A DNA stretch of 64,000 nt from Chloroflexota bacterium (lineage in GTDB: Bacteria; Chloroflexota; Anaerolineae; UBA1429), in contig JAAYDC010000009.1 of assembly GCA_012729455.1 (NCBI GenBank), positions 1 through 64,000 of the forward strand. The letters run 5' to 3'. The notes below the pieces were generated by a model, which was not told the origin of the DNA, did not search any database, and saw only the letters and a program-made list of their open reading frames with translations. Positions 6,703-54,929 of the stretch are shown one piece after another (positions within the stretch are counted from its first letter, which is position 1; every line of letters starts with the position of its first letter). The position numbers and the translations under genes are program-made.

Positions 6703-7812
6703 TCAACCGCTGAGCGGGCGGGTCTCCATCACCACACGGCGCAGGCCCTGCATAAAGTAGGCATAGCTGGCATAGGTCACATCCGAGAGCACAAAGTGGT
6801 CGGGTCCCGGGATAAAGCGCCCGATGCGGATCAGCCCGCGTGCGCGCTCGAGTTCGGCATCGATGGCCGCGCGCCCCTGCGACATGACGCGTTTATCCAG
6901 CCCGCCGAGGGCTCCCAGCTGCGGGTAACGCTGCAGCAGGCCGGCCAGGTCGTTGCCGGATTGCACCTCAAAGGGATAGAGTGCGTTGACGCCGCTCTCG
7001 AGCATCAGGCCGGTAAGGGCATCGATCAGGCCGTCTGAATCGACCAGCACGATCGGGATGCGGTGGACATCCGCAAAGGCGCGGATGCGTCGGTAGTGCG
7101 GCTGCATGAAACGCCGAAAGACGGCCGGCGAGACCAGCGCCCCCGAGCGGTATGCCATATCTTCCCAGCATTCGATCAGGTCGAAATCGAGCTCGCTGAG
7201 CATGCGCTCCCACAGCGAGATCGCCACATCGGTATAAGTTGTCATAATGTCATCGACCAGGTCGGGGGTGTCGTAAAAGGCATAGGCGAGGGCCTCATCC
7301 CCCATCAGCTTGCGGATAAAGCCATAGATGCCCCAATGAGTCAGCTGCAGCGGATAGTCGCGCGCGCGCAGTCGCTCAACCTCGGCCGGCCAATCGGGGG
7401 CAAAACGGGTCGGGTCGTCGGCGCGCAGATGCAGGCTTCGAACACGGTCCCAGTCGTTGCGATCGGCCACGGCAAAGCGCAGCGGCTGGGTATGGTAATC
7501 GCCTGATTTGTTGTGGCGGCGGATCTCACCGTCGCCACGGCGCACCACCAGCTCGTCGGGAGTATCCGAGAGCACCTCGTCGGGACCGAGCGAACTGAGA
7601 TCCATGTTGACGGAGGCGATCTGCCAGCCGCGATAAGGTCCCTCGAACTGCAGCCACTCGTCGATGTGCGTGGAGACGCCCGGCGCCTCTGCTTCCCAGT
7701 CGCCTACATGCGCGTTGGTACCGCCAAAGAGCTTGATAAAGGGCACGCGGTCGGTGGGCTGGCCGGTGAGTACACGCACAAAGCGCTCGCGATGGGTGAG
7801 GGAGGCTGTCAT
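6703..7812 (-). CDS. Uroporphyrinogen-decarboxylase-family protein (non-heme branch)
   Basis: A 369-residue TIM-barrel protein of the URO-D/MtaA superfamily. It begins LTHRERFVRVLTGQPTDRVPF, the standard opening of this family, and has LIECWEDMAYRSGALVSP, VLVDSDGLIDAL and GVNALYPFEVQSGNDL in the expected order. The His-x-Cys zinc motif of corrinoid methyltransferases is absent; the equivalent position reads VDSDG. It is therefore unlikely to be a methylcobamide methyltransferase or a true HemE, and its substrate is unknown. GAAAGGATGCC precedes the ATG. It lies upstream of the solute-binding/radical SAM pair on the same strand and may share their transcript. Confidence 0.85.
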   Translation of the reverse strand: MTASLTHRERFVRVLTGQPTDRVPFIKLFGGTNAHVGDWEAEAPGVSTHIDEWLQFEGPYRGWQIASVNMDLSSLGPDEVLSDTPDELVVRRGDGEIRRHNKSGDYHTQPLRFAVADRNDWDRVRSLHLRADDPTRFAPDWPAEVERLRARDYPLQLTHWGIYGFIRKLMGDEALAYAFYDTPDLVDDIMTTYTDVAISLWERMLSELDFDLIECWEDMAYRSGALVSPAVFRRFMQPHYRRIRAFADVHRIPIVLVDSDGLIDALTGLMLESGVNALYPFEVQSGNDLAGLLQRYPQLGALGGLDKRVMSQGRAAIDAELERARGLIRIGRFIPGPDHFVLSDVTYASYAYFMQGLRRVVMETRPLSG

Positions 7813-34511: not shown

Positions 34512-35522
34512 ATGGCCTTGAAAGTGCGTGCGGATCGCTGGTTCGGTAGGCTGCGGTCATTTCGCGAGTTGTCGACCGTGCGTCAACGTCGCCGCCTGAA
34601 CACCCTGCTCCTCGGCTATGGCCTGCTGGCACCGGCAGTGATCCTGCTAATTGTATTTGAGTTTTACCCCCTTTTCTCGGGGTTTTGGATCAGCCTGACT
34701 AACTGGCGCCTGGCCAAAGGTGATTATATCGGCTTTGCCAACTATGCGCGCGCCCTGTCGGACCCGGGCTTTTGGAAAGCGCTGGGCATCACCTTTACCT
34801 ACTCTATTATCTCAGTGCCTCTGCAGCTGGGCATCGCGCTCCTGCTGGCATATCTATTGTTCCAAAAGATCCACGCCATGAGCTTTTTTCGCATGCTCTA
34901 CTTTATGCCGTATGTGACATCAACGGTAGCCTCTGCGGCGATCTGGGCCTACCTGTTCAGCCCCGATATTGGACCGATCAACCGCCTGCTCCAGAGCATG
35001 GGCCTGGAGGGCTTGCGCTGGCTTTCTGAGACGCGCGGCATCTTTCAGATCATGGCGGCGCGCGTTGGGGTGGACCTGCCGGCTGCTCTGGCGGGGCCCA
35101 GCCTGGCGCTGATCTCACTGATCATTTATACCACCTGGGTTTTTGTGGGCTACGACACGGTGCTGTTTTTATCGGGATTATCGAACATCCCGGCTGAGCT
35201 TTACGACGCCGCCAAGGTCGATGGCGCCTCGGGCTGGAAGCTCTTTCGCCACATCACCTTTCCGTTATTATCGCCCACCACCTTTTTTGTGGTGCTGATC
35301 ACGATCATTGGCACGTTCAAGGCCTTTAACCACATTTATATCATGACACGCGGCGGACCCGGAGATGCCACCACCACCGCCAGCATCTATATCTTTAACC
35401 AAATGGTGACGTATAATCGCTACGGTTACAGTGCGGCGCTCTCCTTTCTGACGTTTATGGTAATATTGCTGCTTACCATCCTGCAGAACAAGATTGCCGG
35501 CAACAGGGTGGTCTATGATTAA
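34512..35522 (+). CDS. ABC sugar permease 1 (MalF/UgpA type) of importer 2
   Basis: A 336-residue permease without the propeller extension seen in importer 1. After a basic cytoplasmic N-terminus, helices begin at LLLGYGLLAPAVILLIVFEF. FFRMLYFMPYVTSTVASAAIWAYLF and the EAA loop ELYDAAKVDGASGWKLFRHITFPLL are standard. GGAGA precedes ATG 34512. Its 3' end overlaps the second permease by 8 bases, so the two are co-translated. Confidence 0.94.
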   Translation: MALKVRADRWFGRLRSFRELSTVRQRRRLNTLLLGYGLLAPAVILLIVFEFYPLFSGFWISLTNWRLAKGDYIGFANYARALSDPGFWKALGITFTYSIISVPLQLGIALLLAYLLFQKIHAMSFFRMLYFMPYVTSTVASAAIWAYLFSPDIGPINRLLQSMGLEGLRWLSETRGIFQIMAARVGVDLPAALAGPSLALISLIIYTTWVFVGYDTVLFLSGLSNIPAELYDAAKVDGASGWKLFRHITFPLLSPTTFFVVLITIIGTFKAFNHIYIMTRGGPGDATTTASIYIFNQMVTYNRYGYSAALSFLTFMVILLLTILQNKIAGNRVVYD

Positions 35523-36390
35523 GACACCCCGCATCCGTCTGGGGCGCCTGCTGATCTATCTTGTGCTGATCATCGGCGCGCTGATCTCGGTGCTGCCCTT
35601 TGTCTATATGATCACCTCGGCGCTCAAGAGTTATGGGGCGATCCTCACCAACCAGTTTTGGCCCTGGTGGCCGTTTGGCGACGAGCCGTTGCAGTGGCAG
35701 AACTATGCCCAGGCGATCAACGACATCGGCTTTGATCATACCTGGGGTATCCCGCTTTTTTACCGCTATCTGCTCAACAGCCTGATCGTCACCGGACTGA
35801 CGGTAGCGGGGACGCTCCTGATCTCGATCATGGCGGCTTATGCCCTGGCACTCATGGATCTGCCCGGCAAGAACGCCATCTTTATGCTCTTTTTAGCCAC
35901 CCTGATGATCCCCGGCGACCTGACGTTGGTGCCCAAAGTGGTGATGGTGTTTCGTCTGGGATGGTATAACACTTATGCGGCGCTGGTTGTGCCGTGGCTG
36001 GTGAGCGTTTTCGGCGTGTTTTTGCTGCGCCAGTTCTTTATGCAGGTCCCCAAAGACCTGTACGACGCCGCCCAGATCGATGGCGCGGGGCACATCCGCT
36101 TCATGTTTTCGATCGTCGTGCCGATCAGCCGCCCGGCGATCATCACTGTAGCGCTGCTCAACTTTATCTGGAGCTGGGATAACTTTCGCTGGCCGCTGCT
36201 GGTCACGCGGGATGCCAATATGCGCGTGCTGGCGGTGGGTATGCAGCAGTTTATGGCTGGTGAAGGCGGCACGCAGGTCCATCTGATGATGGCGTTTGCC
36301 AGCATGGTGGTGGTGCCGGTGCTGATTTTCTACTTTATCACACAAAGATACTTTACTGAAGGTATTGCCCGGACGGGCATCAAGGGTTAG
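35515..36390 (+). CDS. ABC sugar permease 2 (MalG/UgpE type) of importer 2
   Basis: A 291-residue permease with six helices and the EAA loop DLYDAAQIDGAGHIRFMFSIVVPISRP. ISIMAAYALALMDLPGKNAIFMLFLATLMIPGDLTLVPK is characteristic. ATG 35515 overlaps the end of the first permease gene. It heterodimerises with that protein. No ATPase gene is present. Confidence 0.94.
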   Translation: MIKTPRIRLGRLLIYLVLIIGALISVLPFVYMITSALKSYGAILTNQFWPWWPFGDEPLQWQNYAQAINDIGFDHTWGIPLFYRYLLNSLIVTGLTVAGTLLISIMAAYALALMDLPGKNAIFMLFLATLMIPGDLTLVPKVVMVFRLGWYNTYAALVVPWLVSVFGVFLLRQFFMQVPKDLYDAAQIDGAGHIRFMFSIVVPISRPAIITVALLNFIWSWDNFRWPLLVTRDANMRVLAVGMQQFMAGEGGTQVHLMMAFASMVVVPVLIFYFITQRYFTEGIARTGIKG

Positions 36391-36457
36391 TGCGGGTTTT
36401 AGAGGGCAACACATATCCGCCCCAAACCATATCAGATCATTCAACAGGAGGAATGAG

Positions 36458-37834
36458 ATGCAATTGCGAACCTTACCCCGTGTGCTGGTGCTGTTGCTGG
36501 TGCTGGCGCTCGCGCTGACGGCCTGTCAGCCGACTGCCCCCAAGGGCCCGGATGCCGAAGGCGGATCAGAGATCGATGCCATCGACCTGACGGGCAAGAA
36601 TATCGAAGTGGTGCTGTGGCACAACCGCTCGCAGTCGGATCAGGACCTGCTGCAGGAAATGCTGGACGAGTTCAACGCCAGCAACCCCTACGGCATCACA
36701 GCCCGCGCCGAGATCGGCGGTGCCAGCTATAACGACGTCTACAACAAGATCAACGCGGCTATCCAGGGCGGCACCCCGCCCAACATCGCGGTGGCTTATC
36801 AGAACCAGGCCGCGTTGTACCGCTCGCAGGATGCCGTGATCGACCTGACGCCCTATATCAACAGCACCAAATATGGGCTGAGCGCTGAAGACAGGGCCGA
36901 CTACTTTCAGGCTTTTCTGGATAGCGACGCCAACCCGCAGTTCCAGGGCGAAGTGCTGGGCTTTCCGACGCAGCGCTCGCTGGAAGTGATGTACTATAAC
37001 CAGGACTGGCTGACTGAGCTCGGTTACGACGCCCCGCCAACCACCTGGGAAGAGTTTGAAGAGATCGCCTGCAAGGCTGCTCAGGAGGATGATAAAGCCG
37101 GCTGGGCGCTCCTGCATGAGGCCTCGAACTTTGCCTCGCAGGTATTTGCGCGCGGCGGTCGCATCCTGTCGGAAGACGGCACCAGATACGTCTTTAACGA
37201 GCAGGCCGGCCAGGACGCCCTGGCAATGATCCAGCGCATGGCTGCCAACAAGTGCCTGGTCGAGATCCCCGTCTCCGAGCGCTATGGCGAGCAGAATCGC
37301 TTTGCCAATGGCGACATCCTGTTCGTGTTTGCCTCGTCGTCGGGCATGAACTATTACGCCGACGCCGTGGCCAAGGCTGGCGGCTTTAAGTGGGCCGTGG
37401 CGCCTCTGCCGCAGAGCGGCGAGCTGCATATGAACCTGTACGGCGCCAGCATGTCGGTGTTCAAGACCACCCCCGAGCAGCAACTGGCCTCCTGGCTGGT
37501 GATCAAGTTCCTGGGTGAGAAAGAACAGACCACGCGTTGGGCGGCCAAGACTGGCTACCTGCCGGTGCGTGCCAGTGCCAAAGACGACGTGATCGCGGCC
37601 CTCAAAGCCAACGAAAAGTGGGCTTCGGCGGCCGATAGCTATGCCATGCTCTTTGACTGGGCGAATGCCGGAATGGTTGAATCGCCGGTGGCCGGTTACG
37701 ACGGCGTGCGTGCGCTGATCGATACCGACCTGATCTCCAAGGTGATCAACGACCCGAATGCTGATGTCAAGGCCCTGCTGGATGCCGCGGTTGTAAAGGC
37801 CGATGAGATCCTGAAGGAAAATGCTCCGCAGTAA
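36458..37834 (+). CDS. Importer 2 solute-binding lipoprotein
   Basis: A 458-residue UgpB-like binding protein. The lipobox L-T-A-C gives Cys23. VVLWHNRSQSDQDLLQEMLDEFNASNPYGI is the first strand and helix, followed by AIQGGTPPNIAVAYQNQAALY, QRSLEVMYYNQDWLTELGYDAPPTTWEEFEEIA and WLVIKFLGEKEQTTRWAAKTGYLPVR, all family landmarks. CAGGAGGAA precedes the ATG. It ends at a strong bidirectional terminator. Ligand is inferred to be an oligosaccharide or glycerophosphodiester; the adjacent mannosidase favours the former. Confidence 0.95.
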   Translation: MQLRTLPRVLVLLLVLALALTACQPTAPKGPDAEGGSEIDAIDLTGKNIEVVLWHNRSQSDQDLLQEMLDEFNASNPYGITARAEIGGASYNDVYNKINAAIQGGTPPNIAVAYQNQAALYRSQDAVIDLTPYINSTKYGLSAEDRADYFQAFLDSDANPQFQGEVLGFPTQRSLEVMYYNQDWLTELGYDAPPTTWEEFEEIACKAAQEDDKAGWALLHEASNFASQVFARGGRILSEDGTRYVFNEQAGQDALAMIQRMAANKCLVEIPVSERYGEQNRFANGDILFVFASSSGMNYYADAVAKAGGFKWAVAPLPQSGELHMNLYGASMSVFKTTPEQQLASWLVIKFLGEKEQTTRWAAKTGYLPVRASAKDDVIAALKANEKWASAADSYAMLFDWANAGMVESPVAGYDGVRALIDTDLISKVINDPNADVKALLDAAVVKADEILKENAPQ

Positions 37835-37859: not shown

Positions 37860-37894
37860 AACACCCCCGCACTGGGCTGGTGCGGGGGTGTTTT
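37860..37894. terminator. Strong bidirectional terminator
   Basis: AACACCCCCGCAC (37860-37872) pairs with GTGCGGGGGTGTT (37880-37892), a 13-bp stem with a 7-base loop and a TTTATT tail. A smaller hairpin, TGATCC-GTTT-GGATCA, precedes it (37844-37859). The stem overlaps the end of the convergent URO-D-like gene. Confidence 0.92.
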
Positions 37895-39104
37895 ATTCCG
37901 CCGCGCGGTAGAGTGCGATCACTTTCTCGGCCGAAACCTCTGCCAGCAGGTTGTGGATGTTGGCAAACACGTATCCACCGCCCTCAGCCAGAGCGCGGCT
38001 GACGCGTTTCGCTTCGGCGCGCACCTGCGCCACCGTGCCGTGCTGCAGCGTGTGCTGGGCATTGACTCCGCCGCCCCACAGCGCCAGGCGTCCGCCTGCC
38101 GCCGCTTTCCATTCGCTGTACGAGTGTCCTCCTGCGGGCCATTGCACCGGGTTGAGGATATCAAAGCCACTCTCAATGATCGGCTCGATTAGATCATAGA
38201 TGGCGCCGCACGAGTGCAAAAAGAGCTTGGTATTGGGCGCGAGGGCGTGGCAGGCATCGTTAATGGCGCGCCGATAGGGCAAAAAGAGGTCGCGATAGAC
38301 CTGCGGCGAGGCAAAGGTCGTATTTTGTGTGCCCCAGTCGTCGGAGGCGATCATGATCACATCCACATACTTTTCGATTTCCGGCAGCAGCGCGCGGATG
38401 TTGTACAGGGTGTGCTCGACAGCGATCGCATGCAGCTCGGCGACGTAATCGGGCTCGAGCAGGCACAACAGCGGAAAGACCGCCAGCCCGCCGTAAGCGT
38501 GGATCGAGATCGGCGCGTTGAGGGCGCCCTCGTTGAGAAACACGGCACGATCGGTGCTCTCGCGCACCTGGCGGCACAACTCATGCAGACGCACCACATC
38601 GGCATCCTTGATGCGCTGGCGTGCCAGCCGGCGGCGCATCGCTTTGAGGTTGACCATCGGCAGCTCGGTGTCGAGGTGGAGCGGCTGTCCGCCGTGCGGC
38701 TCGTCAAAAACATAGCTGGCGCTGACCATCTTGCGCCCGCTGAGCATGATGGCCCCATCCTCGACCACGCGGTAGCGGCGCGGATGCTGCACCAGGGCAT
38801 CCAGCCGCCCGTTGAAGCGATAGCGGTGCCAGCGCTCGGGCTGCGGGATGGCGTTGGTGACGCCGTCCGCGATCGTGACCACGTCGCAGCCCAGGGCGTC
38901 CAGCACGTCCAGATCGGGCAAGGCCAGCATCTGGAAGGCGTCCTCAATGCGCGGCAGCCGCGGCGGGAGTCCGAGAGCGGCCACCAGGCTGGGATACGAA
39001 AAGGCACTGATGCTGGTGGAGCGCATCCCGCCCAGGTCTTTGGGGATGCGGTCGGTAGCCTGAAAGTTGAGCGCGTTCATCACACGCTGGCGGGATGTCA
39101 GCAT
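37893..39104 (-). CDS. URO-D/MtaA-family protein with zinc motif
   Basis: A 403-residue TIM-barrel protein. It starts LTSRQRVMNALNFQATDRIP and carries the His-x-Cys-Gly motif FLHSCGAIYDLIEPIIESGFDILNPVQ, the zinc site of corrinoid-dependent methyltransferases such as MtaA and MtbA. A second ligand is likely in the ASDDWGTQ region. A methyltransferase or demethylase role is more likely than heme synthesis. It is the third gene of an operon after lyxose isomerase and alpha-mannosidase, 16 bases after the latter. It is distinct from the URO-D-like protein at 6703-7812, which lacks the motif. Confidence 0.86.
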   Translation of the reverse strand: MLTSRQRVMNALNFQATDRIPKDLGGMRSTSISAFSYPSLVAALGLPPRLPRIEDAFQMLALPDLDVLDALGCDVVTIADGVTNAIPQPERWHRYRFNGRLDALVQHPRRYRVVEDGAIMLSGRKMVSASYVFDEPHGGQPLHLDTELPMVNLKAMRRRLARQRIKDADVVRLHELCRQVRESTDRAVFLNEGALNAPISIHAYGGLAVFPLLCLLEPDYVAELHAIAVEHTLYNIRALLPEIEKYVDVIMIASDDWGTQNTTFASPQVYRDLFLPYRRAINDACHALAPNTKLFLHSCGAIYDLIEPIIESGFDILNPVQWPAGGHSYSEWKAAAGGRLALWGGGVNAQHTLQHGTVAQVRAEAKRVSRALAEGGGYVFANIHNLLAEVSAEKVIALYRAAE

Positions 39105-39120
39105 ATGTTCTCCTCGTGCA

Positions 39121-41766
39121 TCAATCGCTAAAGCGCAGGGTCACGATCTCGTGCGCATCAACCTGCAGCCGCACGCGTCCGGGTGCGAGCAGCTCGGGTG
39201 TGCGTGTACCGGTGGGCTCTTCAGAGAGCATCACCCTTTGGCAGCGTTCAGCCGGCAAACCCAGGTCGACCTCTGTCACGAGCGCTTTATCCGAGGCGTT
39301 CCAGAAGCGTACGATCCAGGCGCGGTTGTCATCGGAGCGCTTGAGTGCCGAGAGCACCAGTGCGGGATGTTCAAGCTGCGCGAGAGCCTGCGGCAATGCG
39401 GGCATTGGCGCAGGACTGCCGTGTGCCAGCACCGGGCTCAGGTAACTGGCAGCCCAACGGGCAGCCGCAGCAGCGCAATCGCTGAACCCAAAGGCGTAGC
39501 GCAGTTCATGCGGGCCCAGCGCCAGCGGACTGCGCAGGTCCTCGAAATTGACTCCCGCGGCCGGGCCAAGGCAATCGCACGAGCGCAGCAGCGTCACCAG
39601 CACCTCGCTCGAAGGGGCACGCGCCTCGTATTCGTAGAGTCCTGCTCCGCTGAAAGTAAAGCCATCGCCCAGACGCAGCCAGTCGGTCATCGGCCGGGTG
39701 GGGCCGCCCCACGGGCGTGTCATGGCGGAAAAGTGTCCGCCCGCGACCACGTCCTCGCGGCTGGCGCTGTACATCCCCAGCCTTAGCCGATGCAGCCGGG
39801 CATTGTTGTCGAGCCTGGTCACCGCCTCCAGCCGTTCGGAGCCGGCCGCCAGGCGCAGGAGGGTCTCGATCTCGAGGGTCACCAGCTCACTCGAGCGCTG
39901 CGCCGCCACCTCTGCGGGCGGCCAGACCCGCCTGGCCGGCCAATCCCAACCCACCAGGTCAGCCGGCAGCTGCCAGCGGGTCGTTACCAGCAGTTCCTGG
40001 GCGACCGCATCGCAGCGGACAAGCCGGCTGGTCACGCGCGCCTCGTCGAACGAGTAGCGCGGCTGATCCCCCGCGACCCGCAGGCTGTCGTAGGCGTTGC
40101 CGGCCTCAGCCATGTCTTCGAACCAGCCGAACGGCTCAGAGATCCGACCGCTGGGTTTGTGGGTGAGCATCAGTCGGCCATCCTGCGCCACATCGAGCGC
40201 CAACAGGTCATTCTCTAGATGGGTGTCGTCAGCAGGGAACTGGCTGGGGTTGGCGTGGGCATCCTCCAGCTGCAGGGTGTGAAAGCCCAGACTGGCCGCG
40301 GGCAGGTTTACTTCGAGGCGCGCCAAGGTGTACGTGGCAGTGTCTGCCTTGGCTGTGTTTTCCTTGACGTTTAGCCGCAGCAGCGTGCGGTCGGCGGCGT
40401 AATAGGTCTCGAGGTCCATCTGGCGTTCGGCGAGCACGCTCAAGGCTCCCACCGCGTTGCCGTTGTTATTGAGCACAGTGTAGCGCGCCGCGCCGAGGCG
40501 CTGCGGCAGGCGCACCAAGGTATCAGCCGTGAGTGTTCCGCCGCCGGGCCAGCCGCCGAAAAGAACCAGCTCGGGCAGAGCAGGGGGGGCGGCGGAAACC
40601 TCAGGCAGGGCCTCGTGCAGCAACCGCTCGCTGGCCAGTTGAGCCAGCTCGTTCACCGAGCGCACCCTGGCATGGATATCCTGCATGGTCGAGTCGTCGT
40701 TGGTGGCGCAGATGCTGTCGTGCGGCTGCGACTGCAGCACCATCTTCCAGGCATGCCGGATCACGTCGGCGTGGTCATATGCGCGTCCATACAGCGCCGC
40801 ATTGAGCGGCTCGAGCAGCCTCGTGAGGGCCAACTCGGCGCGGCGGTTGCCGATTTTAAGGTGCATGTCGGTCGATAGTACTCCCTGCAGCGACATGGGC
40901 GAGATCTCGTCGCCGCGCATCTCGCCGGCCACCGTCTCGAGCTGGATGTCCTGCGCCTCAACCTCACCGCGCGCGGCATCCAGGAAGCGTGCCGGAGTGG
41001 AGGCAAAGAACGTATCCGGCAGTGCCTGGTTAAGGTGTGCCAGGATGGCGCCCATCCCCGGGCGCAGCTCCATATGGTCGACCCCTGCCGAGGCATACAC
41101 CGCGTTGGTTGGAAAGCCCGGCGCCTGGTGCGCAAGGATGGCCTCGGCGGCCTCCAGGGCCAGTGCGGGAGTAGCGGGGGTATGCGCGATGTTGGCCCAG
41201 ATATCCGGGTAGCTCAAAGCCAGGCCGTTGCCATAGCCGATATCGAGCGCCAGCACCCTGGAGCCATCTGCGGACTGCCACCAGAAGAGATGCTGGCTGC
41301 GATCCTGCCGGCCGGTCTGGCTGCCGCGCCCGAGGTTGGCGGAGGTGATCCCAAAACCGTTCAGGATCGCCGGCAGGGCAGCCACCGAGCCGAACGAATC
41401 GGGCACGTAACCCTCGCGCATGGCGCCGCCATAATCGGCAGCTTGCGCAAAACCGATCGCGAGGTTGCGCACCAGGGCCTCGTCGCAGGCCAGGAACTGG
41501 TCGCCCAGGACATACCACGGCCCAAACACCAGCCGCCCGGCGCGCGTCAGAGCTTGCAGACGTTCGCGGTTGGCGGGGCGCACCGCCAGGTAATCGTCGA
41601 TCAGGACCGTCTGGCCATCCGCCACAAAGCACAGCTCGGGCTCGGCCTCGAGGATATCGAGGGCTTTGTCAAAGAGGCGCACCAAGCGGTAGCGGTATTC
41701 CTCGTAACTCTGGATCCACTCGCGGTCCCAATGGGTTGTCAGGATCACATGCACGTCACGCGGCAT
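39121..41766 (-). CDS. GH38 alpha-mannosidase
   Basis: An 881-residue alpha-mannosidase without a signal peptide, so cytoplasmic. LTTHWDREW (His12, Asp14) and YVPDSFG (Asp123, nucleophile and zinc ligand) are in the N-terminal barrel; SQPHDSICATNDDSTMQDIHARV (His349) completes the zinc site. The rest is the large beta-sandwich region typical of GH38. It retains mannosyl groups and releases D-mannose. AGGAACCAGCT precedes the ATG. It lies 11 bases after the isomerase gene in the same operon, so released mannose could be isomerised directly. Confidence 0.95.
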   Translation of the reverse strand: MPRDVHVILTTHWDREWIQSYEEYRYRLVRLFDKALDILEAEPELCFVADGQTVLIDDYLAVRPANRERLQALTRAGRLVFGPWYVLGDQFLACDEALVRNLAIGFAQAADYGGAMREGYVPDSFGSVAALPAILNGFGITSANLGRGSQTGRQDRSQHLFWWQSADGSRVLALDIGYGNGLALSYPDIWANIAHTPATPALALEAAEAILAHQAPGFPTNAVYASAGVDHMELRPGMGAILAHLNQALPDTFFASTPARFLDAARGEVEAQDIQLETVAGEMRGDEISPMSLQGVLSTDMHLKIGNRRAELALTRLLEPLNAALYGRAYDHADVIRHAWKMVLQSQPHDSICATNDDSTMQDIHARVRSVNELAQLASERLLHEALPEVSAAPPALPELVLFGGWPGGGTLTADTLVRLPQRLGAARYTVLNNNGNAVGALSVLAERQMDLETYYAADRTLLRLNVKENTAKADTATYTLARLEVNLPAASLGFHTLQLEDAHANPSQFPADDTHLENDLLALDVAQDGRLMLTHKPSGRISEPFGWFEDMAEAGNAYDSLRVAGDQPRYSFDEARVTSRLVRCDAVAQELLVTTRWQLPADLVGWDWPARRVWPPAEVAAQRSSELVTLEIETLLRLAAGSERLEAVTRLDNNARLHRLRLGMYSASREDVVAGGHFSAMTRPWGGPTRPMTDWLRLGDGFTFSGAGLYEYEARAPSSEVLVTLLRSCDCLGPAAGVNFEDLRSPLALGPHELRYAFGFSDCAAAAARWAASYLSPVLAHGSPAPMPALPQALAQLEHPALVLSALKRSDDNRAWIVRFWNASDKALVTEVDLGLPAERCQRVMLSEEPTGTRTPELLAPGRVRLQVDAHEIVTLRFSD

Positions 41767-41777
41767 AGCTGGTTCCT

Positions 41778-42467
41778 TTACGGGCGATAGTAGCGCGGAT
41801 AGTCTTTACATAACAGATATAGCGGTTCCTCGTCCTCATCGATCTGCGGAAAGCGTCCGACGGGAGTGTAAAAGCGGTTGTCGGTGTTGTCGTTGTTGGC
41901 CTGCGAGACTTCGCCCACCAACACCCTGGACCCTTCGCCCCAAAAGGTGTGGTACAGGCGGTTGGTGATGGTGATGCTCTCGCCGGGCTGCAGCCTCAGG
42001 AGTTCGCCGGGCGCAAAGGTCTTTTGTGTGCCATCGATGTTGACGCTGACCGGTGTGCTTTCATCGAAGGCGTCATCGTCGGTGGCGTTATAGCACTTGA
42101 CCACGAGGGTGCCGCCGCCGCGGTTGATGATGTCCTCGCATTTGAACCAGTGATAATGCAGCGGCGTTTTCTGGTTGGGGTCGCAGATCAGCACCTTTTC
42201 GGCATACAGGCGGTTCTTGATAGCCCGGTCCGGCGAGGGATCCGAGTTGCGGATGGTAAAAATAAAGAGGCCGGTATCGGCGTAATTGCCCGAGCCAAAG
42301 TCGGTGATATCCCAGCCCAGCTCGCGATCGACGATCTCGCGCACTTCTTCGCCCTTGGTCGCCCAGTCAGCCGGGCTCCAGTAGGCAAAGGGCGGCAGGT
42401 GGAATTGTTGCGCACGCAAAAAGGCGTCGGCGTCGCGGATGATAGCGTTAATTTCGGAGCGTTTCAT
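41778..42467 (-). CDS. D-lyxose/D-mannose-type ketol isomerase (cupin)
   Basis: A 229-residue cupin isomerase of the D-lyxose isomerase family (PF07385). Metal ligands are PLHYHWFKCED (His104, His106, Glu111) and RLYHTFWG (His173), matching the E. coli O157 enzyme. The family converts D-lyxose to D-xylulose and, usually better, D-mannose to D-fructose. ATG 42467 was chosen because ACGGAGGAAAG precedes it and the upstream frame is GC-rich noise. It is the first gene of the operon with alpha-mannosidase and the URO-D-like gene. Confidence 0.92.
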   Translation of the reverse strand: MKRSEINAIIRDADAFLRAQQFHLPPFAYWSPADWATKGEEVREIVDRELGWDITDFGSGNYADTGLFIFTIRNSDPSPDRAIKNRLYAEKVLICDPNQKTPLHYHWFKCEDIINRGGGTLVVKCYNATDDDAFDESTPVSVNIDGTQKTFAPGELLRLQPGESITITNRLYHTFWGEGSRVLVGEVSQANNDNTDNRFYTPVGRFPQIDEDEEPLYLLCKDYPRYYRP

Positions 42468-47661: not shown

Positions 47662-50600
47662 ATGTCATTGAACCTTGAGCAGGGCGTCTGCGGTTTACTG
47701 AAGGCGATGGCGCGGGGCAATTACGATGCCATGCTCACCCTCTTTTGCCGCGAGCTGAGCTATCCGTGGGCCAATACCCCTGTCTCAACGCGTCATTGGC
47801 CCAAGGCGGCCGTCGATGTCCTGCAAGATGAACCCAAGCTGGTGGCGGCAACCCAGGCTGACGGCAAAACCGGTTTCTGTATCGTGCATGCCCGGCTGGC
47901 ACCAGGGAGCCAGTCGTCGCCGCTCTCGCTGGCGGCTGAACGGCAGGTTGTCAATCAGCTCTTGGGCGACTATCCCTTTGGCCTCTATCTCTTTTCCACG
48001 GCCAGTGATACTCACTGGCACCTGGTCAATGTGCGCTTGGAGCTCGAGTCAGAAGCCTCAGACGCTGACAAGCGGCCTGCCAGGCGCCGTACACTGCGCC
48101 GCATCGCGCTGGGCCCGCACGAGCGCCTGCGTACCGCAACCGAGCGAGTGGCCATGCTCGATCTGGCCAGCATCGGCGACCCTGACCAGGTATCGCCTCT
48201 GGCCGTACAGCAGCGGCACGATGAGGCGTTCGATGTCGAGCAGGTCACCAAGCAGTTCTATGAAGAATATGTGACCGTGTTCCGCCAGCTCGAGGACGAG
48301 CTCCAGACACAGACGGGCGATCGTACCTGGGCCCACGACTATGCTCTGCAGTTTCACAACCGGCTCATGTTCCTCTGCTATGTGCAGCGCAAGGGCTGGC
48401 TAGGCGACGATCCCGAGTTTCTGACCAAGCTCTGGCAGGCTTATCAAGACACGTCGCAACCGGCTGATACTTTTGTAGAACGATGGCTGCAGGTGCTCTT
48501 TTTCGAGGCCTTTAACCATGGCTTTCAGGCTGGCCGCGCCGACCGCTCCTATCTTCCCGAAGAGATCCGCAACGCTCTGCAGGTTGCGCCCTGGCTGAAT
48601 GGCGGTCTGTTCGAGCGCAACGAGCTGGATAGACAGTATGCTTTCAAGGTGACCGATCAGGCCTTTGAGCACAGTCTCAAGCTGCTGAATCACTACAATT
48701 TCACCGTGGCCGAGGACACGCCGCTCGACCAGGAGGTGGCCGTCGATCCTGAGATGCTCGGCCGGGTCTATGAGAGTCTGGTGAACGTCAGCGATACGGA
48801 CGATGAACGGGGGCAAGCAGGCATCTTTTACACGCCCCGCGTCGAGATCGACCTGATGTGTCGGCTGGCGCTGATCGACTGGCTCTGCAACCACCTCGGC
48901 CGCGAGCGGTTTGAACTGGTCAGCGAGCTGGTCTTTGCCCTGGAGCCCGACGAGCAGGCACAGGCCGATAAGCGCATCTCGAACGAAAACCTCTGGCCCG
49001 ATATCCACCGCTTGCTGCAAAGTGTCACCGTGTGCGACCCGGCCTGCGGCTCGGGCTCGTTTCTGGTGGGCGCGCTCAACGTGCTCGACGATCTGCTGGC
49101 CCGCGCGCAGAGGCAGGTGGGCCAGCTCGAGCGCCCCTATGACCGCAAAAAACGCATCGTCGAGCGCAGCCTCTATGGTGTCGATGTAAAAGGCTGGGCC
49201 GTGCGGGTGGCCGAGCTGCGGCTCTGGCTGCAGCTGCTCATCGACACCGAAATCGACGTGAACGAGCTGCGCGTTCAGCCGGTGCTGCCCAACCTCAGCT
49301 TCAAGGTGCGGGTGGGCGACAGCCTGGTGCAGCGCATCGGGAACGTCGATATGGCCCACCTTGGCCGTGGCAGGCTATCAGTACCCCTCAAGGGGCGCAT
49401 TACCCGCCTTAAAGCGGCGAAATCCGGTTATTTTTACAACCAGCCCGATGCTATTCTCAACACCCCAGCCAAGCTGCAGCACGAAGAGCTGAGCATCTTT
49501 CGCACCATCATTGATGAAGAGCTGATCCGCATCGACGCCCGCCTGATAGAGCTGCGCCAGAGCCTGACGTCTCAGGCCACCTTCGATGGCATGGCCCCGG
49601 CCGCTGGTACACCCGAAAAGAGACAGATCGAGGCTCAGCAGGCCGAACTGGAAGCGCATCGCACGCAGTTGGCCGCCGCCCGCAACAGCCTGAAGCAGGC
49701 CCAGGATGTGCCCTTTGTGTGGGATATCGCCTTTGTCGAGGTGTTTTCAGGTGAGCGGCAGGGCTTTGATCTGGTGCTGGGCAACCCGCCCTATGTGCGC
49801 CAGGAGAGCATCCGCAACCCGCTGTCTGCCCGCGATGAGGCTGCCGAAAGAGCAGCTGTCGCCGCTTACAAGGCCGCGCTGGCCGATGCGGTCTATGCCC
49901 GCTGGCCCAAGACCTTTGGCGATGGGAGCGGCAAGCAGACGTTCAAGCTCGATGGCCGCAGCGACCTCTACATCTACTTTTATCTGGTGGGGCTGAGCCT
50001 GCTCAACCGGCAGGGCGCCTTTTGCTTTGTCACCTCGAACGCCTGGCTCGACGTGGGCTATGGCGCTGCCCTGCAGCGTTTTTTACTGACCCGCGGGCTG
50101 GTCAGGCTGGTGATCGACAACCAGATCAGGCGCTCGTTCAAAGAGGCCGATGTCAATACTGTCATCACCCTGCTGGGGCCGGCGGTGGATGACCGCCGTG
50201 ACCGTGCTGCCAGCCTTGACCACGTGGCACGCTTTGTGATGTTCACTGTGCCCTACGAGCAGGGCCTCTCGGCGGTGCTGTGGCAAGAGGTTGGCGAGGC
50301 CCAAGAGCGCCTTGCCAGGCCCGAGTTTCGCGTGCACCCGCTGATGCAGCGCGACGCGCTGGCGGCCGGCAGCGACCAGGCCAGCCTCTATGCCGGCGAC
50401 AAGTGGGGCGGAAAATACCTGCGGGCTCCCGATATCTACTGGGAGATTCTGCGCCGGGCTGGCGACAGGCTGGTGCGCCTGGGCGATGTAGCCGATGTGC
50501 GGCGCGGTATCACGACTGGAGCGAATGAGTTCTTCCAGATAGATGCCCAACAAGCAGATACATGGGGAATAGAAGCCGAGTTCTTGGTTCCGTTCCTGTT

Positions 50601-51282
50601 CTCGCTGAAGGAAGTGAAGGGCTATCAGGTAAAGCCAGAAGGCCTTAAACGTAGGTTGCTCGTATGTCGTGAATCGAAGGCCGAGTTGCGCCTTCAAAGG
50701 AAGGATGGTGTTCTGCGCTATATCGAATGGGGTGAGGAGTCTGGCTATTCGATGCGCCCTTCGGTTCGTGGTCGTAGTCAGTGGTATACCCTGCCAGACC
50801 AAGAGTCGGCTGACTTTGTGTCAAATCGCTTTCTAGGCGAGCGAGTGGGCTTTCCAGTGATAGACGGAATCGCTGTTTGTGATGTCTTCTTTATTGGGTC
50901 ATTCCGTGGAGTCGATGGTGTTTTGGGGACAGCGTTGCTCAACAGCGTGATCTGCTTGATGGTTGCAGAGGTCGTCGCCCGCAAGACCTATGGGACAGGG
51001 GTAGCCTACATGTATGGGCCTGAGATCAGAGGCTTATTGATGCCCAGCCCGTACATAATGACTTCGGTCGGTACTGCGCTACATGAGGCATTCGGGGCGA
51101 TGAGACGTCGGCGAATTCTTCCGCTGGAACAGGAACTAGTCCAGTCGGACCGTCAGGCACTTGATGAAGTTGTTCTGGCTGCGCTGGGGCTGCAAGGTAA
51201 ATACCGGGCTCTCATCTATGAATCACTTCTCGAGATGGTTCAGGCTCGTCTGGCCAAGGCCAGCAGCCTAGAAAGAATGTAG
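47662..51282 (+). CDS. Large N6-adenine DNA methyltransferase (Eco57I superfamily)
   Basis: A 1206-residue class I DNA methyltransferase. Motif I is DPACGSGSF (from Asp459) and motif IV is NPPYVR (Asn708), diagnostic of N6-adenine methylation. The ~250 residues between them contain a coiled coil (LEAHRTQLAAARNSLKQ). GIFYTPRVEIDLMCRLAL introduces the methylase core. RRGITTGANEFFQI marks the TaqI/PglX-like target recognition domain. No PD-ExK or other nuclease motif is evident. ATG 47662 is preferred to the upstream TTG 47644. With the following gene it forms a modification/restriction-like pair. Confidence 0.9.
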   Translation: MSLNLEQGVCGLLKAMARGNYDAMLTLFCRELSYPWANTPVSTRHWPKAAVDVLQDEPKLVAATQADGKTGFCIVHARLAPGSQSSPLSLAAERQVVNQLLGDYPFGLYLFSTASDTHWHLVNVRLELESEASDADKRPARRRTLRRIALGPHERLRTATERVAMLDLASIGDPDQVSPLAVQQRHDEAFDVEQVTKQFYEEYVTVFRQLEDELQTQTGDRTWAHDYALQFHNRLMFLCYVQRKGWLGDDPEFLTKLWQAYQDTSQPADTFVERWLQVLFFEAFNHGFQAGRADRSYLPEEIRNALQVAPWLNGGLFERNELDRQYAFKVTDQAFEHSLKLLNHYNFTVAEDTPLDQEVAVDPEMLGRVYESLVNVSDTDDERGQAGIFYTPRVEIDLMCRLALIDWLCNHLGRERFELVSELVFALEPDEQAQADKRISNENLWPDIHRLLQSVTVCDPACGSGSFLVGALNVLDDLLARAQRQVGQLERPYDRKKRIVERSLYGVDVKGWAVRVAELRLWLQLLIDTEIDVNELRVQPVLPNLSFKVRVGDSLVQRIGNVDMAHLGRGRLSVPLKGRITRLKAAKSGYFYNQPDAILNTPAKLQHEELSIFRTIIDEELIRIDARLIELRQSLTSQATFDGMAPAAGTPEKRQIEAQQAELEAHRTQLAAARNSLKQAQDVPFVWDIAFVEVFSGERQGFDLVLGNPPYVRQESIRNPLSARDEAAERAAVAAYKAALADAVYARWPKTFGDGSGKQTFKLDGRSDLYIYFYLVGLSLLNRQGAFCFVTSNAWLDVGYGAALQRFLLTRGLVRLVIDNQIRRSFKEADVNTVITLLGPAVDDRRDRAASLDHVARFVMFTVPYEQGLSAVLWQEVGEAQERLARPEFRVHPLMQRDALAAGSDQASLYAGDKWGGKYLRAPDIYWEILRRAGDRLVRLGDVADVRRGITTGANEFFQIDAQQADTWGIEAEFLVPFLFSLKEVKGYQVKPEGLKRRLLVCRESKAELRLQRKDGVLRYIEWGEESGYSMRPSVRGRSQWYTLPDQESADFVSNRFLGERVGFPVIDGIAVCDVFFIGSFRGVDGVLGTALLNSVICLMVAEVVARKTYGTGVAYMYGPEIRGLLMPSPYIMTSVGTALHEAFGAMRRRRILPLEQELVQSDRQALDEVVLAALGLQGKYRALIYESLLEMVQARLAKASSLERM

Positions 51283-51617
51283 GCTCATATGCAGTTCTGG
51301 CAGCTAGTGCCGGTGATGGTGATCAATGTTCGGTCCAAGGAGTCCCCTATGTCCGCAAACGTCAGTACAATATCTACTATAGCGAGGTGCCCTGCTACCG
51401 TGATAGGCTGGCGGTGCCGAGATCATTGACGGTCACAGCGGTGCTGGTGGCCGGCGGCCTCCACCGGGAGGCACGCGCCGCAAGGCACAGGGCCGCCAGC
51501 CTGCGCTGACGGCGACAGAGCGGACGCCCTTGAGCTGTAGTTGCTGGCTGCTTGAGTTCACCTGAAGGCCGGTGAGCCGGCGTTCTATGGCCTTAATTGC
51601 ATGAAAGCGGAGCGAAC
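51283..51617. other. Gap between methyltransferase and helicase genes
   Basis: A frame from about 51285 to 51509 is open and reads SVQGVPYVRKRQYNIYYSEV, which looks protein-like but has no start signal. An overlapping 26-codon ORF (51349-51429) is preceded by AAGGAG at good spacing. GGCGGCC (about 51456-51462) could pair with GGCCGCC (about 51491-51497). The gap is larger than expected for a tight two-gene unit. Confidence 0.3.
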
Positions 51618-54600
51618 ATGCAACACGATATCATCGATAACCGCACCGAGAAACTGGCCGACCACATCCGCACGATTCTGCCGGGCACGGCGCGGGCGCG
51701 CTTTGCTGTGGGCTACTTTTTCCTCTCCGGCCTCGAGCATGTGGCCGACGTGCTCGACGGCGTATCTGAGCTGCGCCTGCTGATCGGCAACACCACCAAC
51801 CGCGAGACGCTCGAGCAGCTCGCCGAGGGCTATCGCCGGCTGGAACGGGTTGAGGTCGAGCTGGACGCGCAGCGCTACACCTCGCGGGTGCGCTCCAGCC
51901 AGGCGGCCGATGCCACCGAGGGCGATATCGCCGACAGCGCGGCTGTGCTCGATCAGACCGATCGTACTGAGCAAATGATCGTCTCGCTGGCCGAGCTGAT
52001 CGCACAAGGCAGGATCAAGGTGCGCGTCTACACCAGGGGCAGGCTGCACGCCAAGGCTTATATCTTTGACTATGGCGAGGTGATGAACCTTCAGGGAGAG
52101 ATCATCCCGCGGGCGGAGGCGGGCATCGGCATCGTGGGCTCCAGCAACCTCTCGCTGGCCGGCATCAGCAGCAACACCGAGCTCAATGTGCTGGTGCACG
52201 GCAACGCCAACCATGAGCAACTGGTGAACTGGTTCGACGCGCTGTGGGATGAATCAGAGGACTTTGACGAGCACCTGATGCGTGTGCTGCGGGCGTCGTG
52301 GGCGCTGGCCGAGGTGACGCCCTACGAGATCTACCTGAAGACGCTCTACGAGCTCACCAAAGACGGACTGGATGAGGATGTCGGGCAGCTCTCTCTGTGG
52401 GGCGGCGACATTCAGGAGCAGTTGGCCGATTTCCAACGACACGCCGTGCAGCGGGCGATCCGGATGATCGACCGCCACTCGGGATGCTTTGTGGCCGATG
52501 TGGTGGGGTTGGGCAAGACCTATATCGGCGCCGCCATCCTCAAGCACTTTGTCGAACGCGATCGGGCTCGGCCATTGATCATCTGCCCGGCGCCGCTGGT
52601 GAGCATGTGGGAGGAATTCAACGAAGATTATGACCTCAATGCCCGGGTGGTCTCGATGAGCATGTTGACCGAGGACGAGGTGATGGGGTCTGAATGGATG
52701 CTCACCGATCCCTTCTACCGCAACCGCGATCTGGTGTTGATCGACGAGAGCCACAACTTTCGCCACACCAATAACCAGCGCTACCGCGTGCTGTCATCCT
52801 ACCTCGCCACACACGAGCGGCGATGCGTGCTGCTTACCGCCACGCCGCGCAACAGTTCACTATGGGATATCCACAACCAGATTCGGCTGTTTCACCCCGA
52901 AGAGGTGACCGGGCTGCCCATCGATCCCCCGAACCTGCGCGAGTTTTTCGGTTGTGTCGAGCGCAACGAGCGCCGGCTGCCGGAGCTCCTCTCGCATTTG
53001 CTCATCCGTCGAACGCGCCAGCACGTCCTGCGCTGGTATGGATATGATGACGAGACCGATCAGCCGGTGGACCCCGCGCACTTTGAGCCCTATCGAGCGG
53101 GGCGCAGACGGGCCTACATCAAGGTGGCTGGCGGCAAGCAGTACTTTCCCGGGCGAGAGCTGAACACGGTGCGGTACAGCATTGAAGATACCTATGCTGG
53201 GCTCTATGACAAGATTAAAGACCTGCTGGATGGCGACGGCGACGCCCTGCGCTATGCGCGCTACGGCCTGCATGAGTTTGTCAAGCCGGGCAAGCAGCGG
53301 GTCGATCCCTACCACTCGCTGAGCACCGCCGGGCGCAACCTGCGCGGACTGATGCGGGTGATGCTGTTCAAGCGGCTGGAGTCCAGCGTGCAGGCCTTTC
53401 GCCTGACCGTTAACCGCATGCTCGATAGCCATTGCGCCTTTCTTCAGGCCCTCGACCATGGCATTGTGGCGGTCGGCGATAATGCCAGCGACCTGCTGCG
53501 AGGGACTGGGGAACTCACCGACCGTGAACTGATCAAGGCGCTCGAGCAGGTGACCGGTGAGTATAACATCGATGATTTCCATGCAGAGGCGCTGCGCGAT
53601 GCCATTGCCTATGACATCGCGATCCTGGAACGGCTGCTCGAGCTGACTCTCCCAATCGGCCCGCAAGAGGACGACAAGCTCCAGACCCTCTTGGGCATGC
53701 TCCGTCAGCCGCAGTTCCAGACCAAGTGCCTGATCTTTACGCAATTTGCCGACACGGCCGATTATCTCTACGAGCATGTGAGTGTCGAATACGCCGACAG
53801 CGAGGTTGTGTCATCGGCCAGCAACAGCAAAGGCGAGATCGTGGCGCGCTTTGCCCCCAAAGCCAATCGCTCCGCAGACCGGTTGCGCAGCACAGGCGCA
53901 GAGATTCGCCTGCTGGTCACCACCGATGTGCTCTCTGAAGGGTTGAACCTGCAAGACTGCAACATCATCATCAACTATGATCTGCACTGGAACCCGGTGC
54001 GTTTGATCCAGCGGCTGGGCCGAATCGACCGGATCGGCTCCGAGCACGACACCATCATCGCGCACAACTTTTTACCAGAGCTGGGCATTGAAGAGCATCT
54101 CGGACTGCATCAGACCCTGCGCAACCGCATCGCAGAGATCCATCGAACGATAGGCGAGGATGCCGCTATCCTCGATCCTGACGAGCAGCTCAACGAAGAT
54201 GCAATGTACGCGATCTATGACGCTGGTGATCTGGGGCCTTTAGAAGAGGCAGAAGATACAGATACCTACGTTGATCTGCACGATGCAGAGGAGACGATTC
54301 GCCAGTTGCGCGAGCAGCAGCCCGATCTGTACCAACGCATCGTCGCCATGCCCAATGGTGTGCGTTGCGGGCGAAGCTGCGATGACGGCTACACCTATGT
54401 CTACTGCCGCGCAGGTGACTATTACCGGCTGGTGCTGCTCGATGGCAACGGCACCGAGCTGACACGGCAGACTCCAGCGGTGCTCAACTGGCTCAAGTGC
54501 GCTCCAGACGAGCCGGCCGTCGCTCTGCCGGCGGGCCACAATGAGCGGGTTATGGACTTCAAGCGTGACTTTACCTACGAGGTAAAACGTCGAGCATCCG

Positions 54601-54929
54601 AACGAACACGCGCTCCGCGGAGCACAAGGGCTCAGACGTACGTTCTGGATGAGATGCGGCGCCTTTACAGTGAGACGCGAAATGAGCAATTTAGGCAATC
54701 CATCGACCTGTTGGTGAGAACTTTCAGTCGGCCCGTGGTTCGCATAGCCGTGCGCCAAGCGCTCAACCGCCTGTGGCGCGATCAGGTCGTGGGCCTCGAG
54801 CTGGTGCGGGCGCTGAGGCAGATCCACAACCAGTTCCGTCTGGACATGGACAGCCACCCGAATAAGGCCGATGATGGCCAGGATGACCTGCCGATCATCG
54901 TGTGTTCTGAGGGCGGTTCAGCTCAGTGA
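51618..54929 (+). CDS. PLD nuclease fused to SNF2-type helicase
   Basis: An 1103-residue fusion. The N-terminal domain has one PLD half-site, RLHAKAYIF (His144, Lys146) with GSSNLS (Asn177), which would act as a dimeric nuclease. The SF2/SNF2 motor follows: VVGLGKTYIG (Lys300), LIDESHNFR (Asp376), LLTATPRN, and LNLQDCNIIINYDLHWNPVRLIQRLGRIDRIG with the arginine finger near 802. The C-terminal ~250 residues are not assigned. ATG 51618 is preferred to TTG 51597. Such helicases occur in defence islands with N6 methyltransferases, as here. A DNA-translocating nuclease restrained by methylation is inferred. Confidence 0.92.
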   Translation: MQHDIIDNRTEKLADHIRTILPGTARARFAVGYFFLSGLEHVADVLDGVSELRLLIGNTTNRETLEQLAEGYRRLERVEVELDAQRYTSRVRSSQAADATEGDIADSAAVLDQTDRTEQMIVSLAELIAQGRIKVRVYTRGRLHAKAYIFDYGEVMNLQGEIIPRAEAGIGIVGSSNLSLAGISSNTELNVLVHGNANHEQLVNWFDALWDESEDFDEHLMRVLRASWALAEVTPYEIYLKTLYELTKDGLDEDVGQLSLWGGDIQEQLADFQRHAVQRAIRMIDRHSGCFVADVVGLGKTYIGAAILKHFVERDRARPLIICPAPLVSMWEEFNEDYDLNARVVSMSMLTEDEVMGSEWMLTDPFYRNRDLVLIDESHNFRHTNNQRYRVLSSYLATHERRCVLLTATPRNSSLWDIHNQIRLFHPEEVTGLPIDPPNLREFFGCVERNERRLPELLSHLLIRRTRQHVLRWYGYDDETDQPVDPAHFEPYRAGRRRAYIKVAGGKQYFPGRELNTVRYSIEDTYAGLYDKIKDLLDGDGDALRYARYGLHEFVKPGKQRVDPYHSLSTAGRNLRGLMRVMLFKRLESSVQAFRLTVNRMLDSHCAFLQALDHGIVAVGDNASDLLRGTGELTDRELIKALEQVTGEYNIDDFHAEALRDAIAYDIAILERLLELTLPIGPQEDDKLQTLLGMLRQPQFQTKCLIFTQFADTADYLYEHVSVEYADSEVVSSASNSKGEIVARFAPKANRSADRLRSTGAEIRLLVTTDVLSEGLNLQDCNIIINYDLHWNPVRLIQRLGRIDRIGSEHDTIIAHNFLPELGIEEHLGLHQTLRNRIAEIHRTIGEDAAILDPDEQLNEDAMYAIYDAGDLGPLEEAEDTDTYVDLHDAEETIRQLREQQPDLYQRIVAMPNGVRCGRSCDDGYTYVYCRAGDYYRLVLLDGNGTELTRQTPAVLNWLKCAPDEPAVALPAGHNERVMDFKRDFTYEVKRRASERTRAPRSTRAQTYVLDEMRRLYSETRNEQFRQSIDLLVRTFSRPVVRIAVRQALNRLWRDQVVGLELVRALRQIHNQFRLDMDSHPNKADDGQDDLPIIVCSEGGSAQ

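Follow-up and report, generated by a model that had tools for sequence, protein, structure and literature searches.

The uroporphyrinogen decarboxylase (UroD) superfamily includes corrinoid-dependent O-, S- and halogen-demethylases, and Mlp proteins are defined by more than 25% identity to a characterized soluble coenzyme M methyltransferase (SCMT), as described in PMC10418091. According to PMC13222342, MtvB, OdmB and VdmB demethylate methoxylated aromatics, and CdmB and a Moorella enzyme are without zinc. In the open-licence PMC literature, as far as its listings and the openings of its abstracts reveal, we encountered no corrinoid system for the demethylation of sugars and found nothing on UroD genes in sugar clusters. 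Here, we have analyzed a stretch of 64,000 nucleotides (the window) from a Chloroflexota bacterium of the class Anaerolineae (GenBank assembly GCA_012729455.1, 2.64 Mb in 30 contigs; contig JAAYDC010000009.1, positions 1 to 64,000 of the forward strand), in which a UroD-superfamily protein (window_33) is encoded in an operon with a GH38 alpha-mannosidase and a cupin isomerase of the D-lyxose/D-mannose type (LyxI). We see about an even chance that this UroD protein is a corrinoid-linked demethylase of methylated sugars that shares its carrier with other enzymes, a reading that rests on the known chemistry of the superfamily and on gene context.

In the proposed pathway, an ATP-binding cassette (ABC) transporter would import an alpha-mannoside, the cytoplasmic GH38 enzyme would free mannose (we infer the specificity of both steps) and LyxI would convert mannose to fructose. 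The UroD protein would serve as the substrate-side methyltransferase, i.e., a demethylase of MT-I type, with an O-methyl ether of the mannoside or of a partner sugar as the most likely methyl source. The acceptor of the methyl group would be a Co(I) corrinoid protein whose gene lies at another place in the genome and which would serve many UroD paralogues; a RACo-type activator would keep this carrier reduced, and the methyl group would finally be drained to tetrahydrofolate. Such a protein would have its superfamily and the transfer of a methyl group from substrate to corrinoid protein in common with the MT-I demethylases MtvB, OdmB, VdmB, MtoB and CdmB. Relatives of the window UroD within its clade adjoin a corrinoid protein as well; however, the known enzymes act on aromatic ethers or haloalkanes whereas the clade stands in sugar operons, and the window operon differs from their clusters in having no corrinoid gene nearby in the source genome.

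The probable mannoside operon and its UroD protein

A sequence-only reading of the window had proposed that positions 37893-42467 of the minus strand carry a three-gene operon in which a mannosidase is coupled to a cupin isomerase and accompanied by a "corrinoid-type", "MtaA-like" zinc protein that might demethylate O-methyl-mannose or other methylated sugars. The operon was confirmed, with open reading frames at these positions, Lyx_isomer, GH38 and URO-D domains in Pfam, and gaps of only 11 (isomerase to GH38) and 16 bases (GH38 to UroD). The reading of the first two genes as a mannosidase and an isomerase is supported. The isomerase reaches 323.6 bits with Lyx_isomer (PF07385; cut-off 20.8) and matches its nearest solved structure, the D-lyxose isomerase 3kmh, over the full length with the HxHW and cupin motifs of the metal site aligned; it differs from that D-lyxose/D-mannose isomerase family in scoring 266.3 bits with NF051472, under the equivalog cut-off of 350. 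The mannosidase has the N-terminal, middle and C-terminal domains of GH38 together with the catalytic motifs HWDREW (at 12), PDSFG (at 122) and PHDSICA (at 348). Its Glyco_hydro_38N domain (PF01074) scores 96.6 bits against a cut-off of 25, Alpha-mann_mid, one of the two further GH38 domains, scores exactly at the cut-off, and the nearest solved structures are the bacterial alpha-mannosidases 2wyh (the closest), 5kbp and 3lvt. Domains and catalytic motifs are common to the mannosylglycerate hydrolase MngB, but the window enzyme reaches 300.3 bits with PRK09819, below the MngB equivalog cut-off of 1138. On inspection by eye, none of the three translations shows an N-terminal signal sequence, so it is reasonable to expect that mannose is freed inside the cell and then isomerized.

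Both the profile score (URO-D, PF01208, 53.2 bits; cut-off 23.9) and the fold of an AlphaFold model (pLDDT 92.4, pTM 0.92) place the third protein in the UroD superfamily. In structural comparisons, the model resembles HemE and MtaA to about the same degree (Z 21.6-23.4; up to 23.4 for HemE and 22.1 for the MtaA structure 4ay7), and neither Foldseek nor VIA-align distinguished a HemE-like from an MtaA-like protein. At the sequence level, Methanosarcina mazei MtaA (4ay7) was matched at E=0.0029, and structural alignments with 4ay7/4ay8 gave 17-19% identity. The zinc triad of MtaA-type enzymes consists of H-x-C plus a third Cys. In the window protein, the H-x-C motif is present and the third position is occupied by His384, a residue that HemE also carries at this place. 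In an alignment of 55 sequences, comprising the window's own and 54 others at 45-72% identity to it, H297, C299, D256, Q260, N318 and Q321 are invariant and H384 is conserved in 90% or more.

With the same fold and the HxC motif, a classical MtaA-type methyl-corrinoid:thiol methyltransferase or a true HemE might be considered, an explanation already disfavored and in our judgment very improbable: the protein scores 39 bits with TIGR01463 (MtaA/CmuA; cut-off 235.4), has no hemE match (TIGR01464) at E 0.001, has His rather than Cys as the third ligand position and, in contrast to HemE, sits in a sugar operon. In the comparison with M. mazei MtaA, it also falls below the 25% identity that defines Mlp proteins. 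"MtaA-like" therefore fails as a family name and so does an MtaA-type zinc site; the resemblance to MtaA is only a distant one.

Recurrence of the GH38-UroD linkage and of corrinoid proteins among relatives

Several sets of loci were compared, comprising 20 window-like GH38 loci, 18 loci of long, high-scoring GH38 genes and 20 corrinoid loci (mostly from UroD-rich genomes), all hand-picked non-randomly with most contig-end matches avoided, as well as the 20 LyxI loci ranked best after the window's own; some neighbors were annotated by eye and not by profile scans. The linkage of GH38 and UroD genes is recurrent. Among the window-like GH38 loci, a set that leaves out the window's own copy and its counterpart in the relative G010 and includes the second GH38 gene of the source genome beside a UroD fragment of 62 aa (L261), a UroD gene was located within two same-strand genes in 8/20 (expected 0.24; P ~2e-11, or 1e-9 leaving out the 62-aa fragment) and directly adjacent in six (expected 0.12), where the expectation assumed 1.1 kb per gene and was computed from rounded genome sizes and the first-look counts of UroD candidates. 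These eight loci are spread over six families of the class. The linked UroDs belong to several groups with at most 35% identity between them and occupy separate places on the tree, so that more than one origin of the linkage is probable. It is weaker at the long, high-scoring GH38 loci (2/18 within two same-strand genes, one of them adjacent; Fisher vs 8/20, p=0.07), and the LyxI loci had a UroD gene within two same-strand genes in 0/20 (Fisher vs 8/20, p=0.003) and on any strand in 2/20. A PfkB-like kinase motif stood alongside LyxI in 11 of these 20.

The sequence-only reading had tied its proposal to a linkage that recurs in other genomes; this holds for GH38 and UroD, whereas G010 is the one relative in which the complete trio was seen, split over two unjoined contigs. 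One carries the UroD (72% identity), solute-binding protein (SBP; 80%) and permease (76-83%) counterparts together with the end of GH38 (53%), and the other carries the isomerase (75%) and the rest of GH38 (61%). As a widespread module the trio was rejected, no LyxI being found at the 43 orthologue loci described below and no UroD near a same-strand LyxI in the 20 LyxI loci. Two loci (L223 and L224) show UroD followed by GH38 with LyxI close by on the opposite strand, and another two (L249 and L251) have the order permease, permease, UroD, a protein of 403 or 409 aa, and GH38. The intervening protein of L249 matches DUF455. DUF455-like proteins of about 404 aa were noted at L249 5088-6299, L251 4830-6059 and L223 9115-10329 (the scan was for L249), the last on the opposite strand just before the UroD-GH38 pair.

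Of 80 contigs retained after scanning GTDB, 43 contain an orthologue of the window UroD (at least 44% identity), the closest being in contigs labeled Chloroflexi, Anaerolineae or Thermoflexus, and an orthologue at E 1e-65 was found in 17/396 genomes of the class, the source genome included. These data bear on the explanation that the UroD gene is a passenger, whose subfamily has a general function unrelated to mannosides and joined the operon in this lineage only. The orthologues occur in very different contexts with neighbors often on the opposite strand, those of Clostridia stand beside DnaJ-like and other housekeeping genes (by eye), and within the fetched flanks, many of which were cut short, GH38 was seen at 3/43 and LyxI at 0/43. 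However, GH38-UroD with the converging ABC genes is kept in G010 at 72% UroD identity, GH38 lies directly after the orthologue in G329 and three genes after it in G187, and the linkage of GH38 with other UroD groups is far above the density expectation; we hold a passenger gene to be improbable.

The corrinoid side of the proposed demethylase is best seen in its relatives. In the midpoint-rooted UroD tree, a branch with 98/87 support has on one side window_33 and its orthologues, L272_3 and L273_11 with the GH38-linked L255_6, L154_10 with L014_5 of the source genome, and another own paralogue, L018_15. The motifs HxCG..H, DD..Q and NPVQ are common to the window UroD, L272_3 and L273_11, and since both sisters sharing this active-site signature are encoded in sugar operons alongside a corrinoid protein, a corrinoid link of the clade is supported. 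Some members of the DxD..H-type group and of the L010_5 group likewise belong to corrinoid-protein operons. A corrinoid protein in the same cluster, as expected of an MT-I demethylase, is present for L272_3, L273_11 and L154_10, but none was found near the window operon.

A UroD gene was next to the carrier in 6/20 corrinoid loci. Three loci (L267, L272 and L273) represent one operon type from one family of the class, and Pfam domains of L272 include FGGY kinase, xylose-isomerase-like TIM barrel, galactokinase, Gfo/Idh and HUMPS families. At another corrinoid-UroD locus (L275), a mannitol dehydrogenase-like gene is present and LyxI is encoded on the opposite strand, and two loci of one genus (L279 and L282) encode, next to the corrinoid protein, a UroD protein of 743 aa, which by Pfam is a LacI-UroD fusion at L279 5707-7938 (the scan was for L279, not L282). 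At L123 6-1394, a UroD gene (E 5e-79) precedes the beginning of a gene resembling corrinoid proteins (43% over 58 aa), which is cut off by the boundary of the fetched piece. The most elaborate locus, L154 of Anaerolineae bacterium isolate co234_bin11, comprises a LacI-like regulator, SBP, two permeases, a nucleoside hydrolase-like gene, two UroDs and a corrinoid protein that is 60% identical to that of the source genome. Three genes beyond the latter lies a methyl-H4folate:corrinoid methyltransferase-like gene (307.6 bits vs 259), followed by a gene of unknown kind, a RACo-type gene and a MetF-like gene (both below cut-offs), and the other side carries ribose-5-phosphate isomerase B (over cut-off) and transketolase; the regulator, permeases and transketolase were named by eye. 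For this system (L154 340-19588), 2'-O-methyl nucleosides may be considered as a substrate.

UroD paralogues and corrinoid apparatus in the genome and the class

The source genome has 41 PF01208 matches, of which 38 are over the cut-off, and these correspond to 41 gene calls, fragments included. Among the 37 paralogues that exceed 300 aa, pairwise identity has a median of 19%, and the ligand positions show HxC in 17/37, DxD..H in 10/37 and HxC..C in two. Judged by PF01208 scores and one TIGR01464 scan, no HemE-like gene was detected among the 41; the top match (194 bits) reached 86.8 bits with TIGR01464 against a cut-off of 302.95, and other genomes of the class contain PF01208 matches of more than 400 bits, presumably HemE. 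The usual UroD step of heme synthesis seems to be absent from this genome. A second UroD-superfamily gene of the DxD..H type is located in the window itself (6703-7812, minus strand) and adjoins a gene similar to the window SBP and, by eye, a radical-SAM-looking gene. Several paralogues appear split or fragmentary (L009 16363-17293, L027, L040 and L261 8838-9026), possibly owing to decay or sequence errors, and two UroD genes are followed by a gene for 203 aa (L014 3514-5190 and L265 3598-5297) that is IMP cyclohydrolase-like (PF07826) in L265 and, by eye, alike in L014.

A single corrinoid protein of the methyltransferase type (B12-binding_2, PF02607; L041 8305-8940) is encoded in this genome and resembles the MtgC/MtbC type below their cut-offs. 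Two further PF02310 matches occur in larger frames of 500 and 634 aa (one match weak), and there is one RACo activator (L226 8390-10219). By eye, the corrinoid-protein and RACo genes each sit among housekeeping genes. One corrinoid protein per UroD can be rejected for the source genome and, from the gene counts, is unlikely for UroD-rich genomes. Across 239 genomes of the class, 77 were UroD-rich (at least 8 scored matches, the count being approximately the number scored per genome in a large search) and 162 were not. RACo was present in 74/77 UroD-rich vs 99/162 other genomes (Fisher 1e-9) and PF02607 proteins in 77/77 vs 145/162 (Fisher 0.002), and all 27 genomes with at least 40 first-look UroD candidates have both. 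Because these 27 contain a median of 2 PF02607 matches, the radiation of UroD coincides with having a corrinoid methyl-transfer apparatus at all and not with many carriers.

Several of these and other observations weigh against a corrinoid-linked sugar demethylase. The 41 UroD matches of the source genome face only one PF02607 protein, and a tblastn search (E 1e-5) of the window and of the fetched surroundings of the genome's other UroD genes detected no homologue of a corrinoid protein or of RACo. Even in the 27 UroD-richest genomes PF02607 matches number 1-10, with one in 9 of them, and 14/20 corrinoid loci are without any UroD. With one genome per family, the association is weak for RACo (16/17 vs 26/39, p=0.04) and not significant for PF02607 (17/17 vs 32/39, p=0.09); RACo and PF02607 serve other pathways too, and the associations are confounded by phylogeny, anaerobic life, MetH and the Wood-Ljungdahl pathway. 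Putative metal-site residues differ among the GH38-linked UroDs, HxD replaces HxC in L154_10, and most UroD orthologues have no GH38 or LyxI beside them, many standing alone among unrelated genes. Finally, the methylated sugar is a putative donor at every locus.

The most serious competitor is a corrinoid-independent UroD that would act on the sugar or sugar acid itself, with decarboxylation, C-C cleavage or isomerization taking place at its putative metal site. HemE needs no cofactor. Besides the disproportion between 41 UroD matches and a single methyltransferase-type corrinoid protein, the variation of the HxC and third-ligand residues, with DxD..H in 10 of the 37 full-length paralogues, would agree with this alternative, as would the many invariant polar residues of the orthologues, which fit a polar substrate. 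The same is true of gene context: among 81 co-directional neighbors of the own UroDs (at least 100 aa, no more than four genes away in either direction, gaps not above 150 bases), Gfo/Idh domains occurred in 6, GH38 and enolase-superfamily domains in 2 each, and GH2, GH42 and fucosidase domains once each, whereas in a control set of 81 genes, sampled randomly from the remaining genes of these stretches, Gfo/Idh and the enolase superfamily each stayed below two members. On the other hand, UroDs of both the DxD..H and the HxC type are found in operons with a corrinoid protein, and RACo is usually kept in UroD-rich genomes; we consider corrinoid-free catalysis to be on the unlikely side.

Surrounding features and implications

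The coordinates of the operon, its putative metal ligands and the neighboring transporter are listed in Table 1. The ABC genes of the plus strand (34512-37834) converge on the UroD gene, with 58 bases between the ends of the SBP and UroD genes. The promoter-like site upstream of the isomerase gene is graded as weak because the scan found 3 sites vs 1.2 in shuffles. Elsewhere in the window, two very large genes lie at 47662-54929 (plus strand). Their products have 1206 and 1103 aa, and the former carries an NPPY motif like that of DNA adenine methyltransferases, perhaps as part of a restriction-modification enzyme.

Table 1. Operon, transporter and sites of interest in the window
Feature	Position	Strand	Remarks
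LyxI, Lyx_isomer-type cupin D-lyxose/D-mannose isomerase	41778-42467	minus	229 aa; operon gene 1; PF07385
GH38 alpha-mannosidase, cytoplasmic	39121-41766	minus	881 aa; operon gene 2; PF01074, PF09261, PF17677
UroD-superfamily protein (window_33), proposed substrate methyltransferase	37893-39104	minus	403 aa; operon gene 3; PF01208
Codons of the H297-x-C299 motif (putative metal ligands)	38208-38216	minus	invariant among 55 sequences
Codon of His384, third putative ligand	37953-37955	minus	aligned with Cys of the own MtaA-like paralogue L009_9
Promoter-like site upstream of the isomerase gene	42527-42498	minus	sigma-70-like consensus 10/12, spacer 18; weak
Sugar ABC transporter permease 1	34512-35522	plus	PF00528; G010 counterpart 76% identical, syntenic
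Sugar ABC transporter permease 2	35515-36390	plus	PF00528; G010 counterpart 83% identical, syntenic
Sugar ABC SBP	36458-37834	plus	PF13416, 127.7 bits; G010 counterpart 80% identical, syntenic

Beyond the single operon, a broader and more tentative picture, which we hold to be somewhat less probable than its converse, is that of a hub with many spokes: dozens of divergent UroDs, many in different sugar operons, would be substrate-specific demethylases of methyl sugars that feed one or a few shared, RACo-activated corrinoid proteins, providing a corrinoid route to methyl-ether sugars in anaerobic Chloroflexota. If this is true, an enzyme family could be named for the anaerobic removal of methyl ethers from sugars, the presence of dozens of UroD genes in some bacteria would be explained, and the neighboring glycosidases would point to substrates for assays. 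It would also give a function to many proteins that are annotated as uroporphyrinogen decarboxylase.

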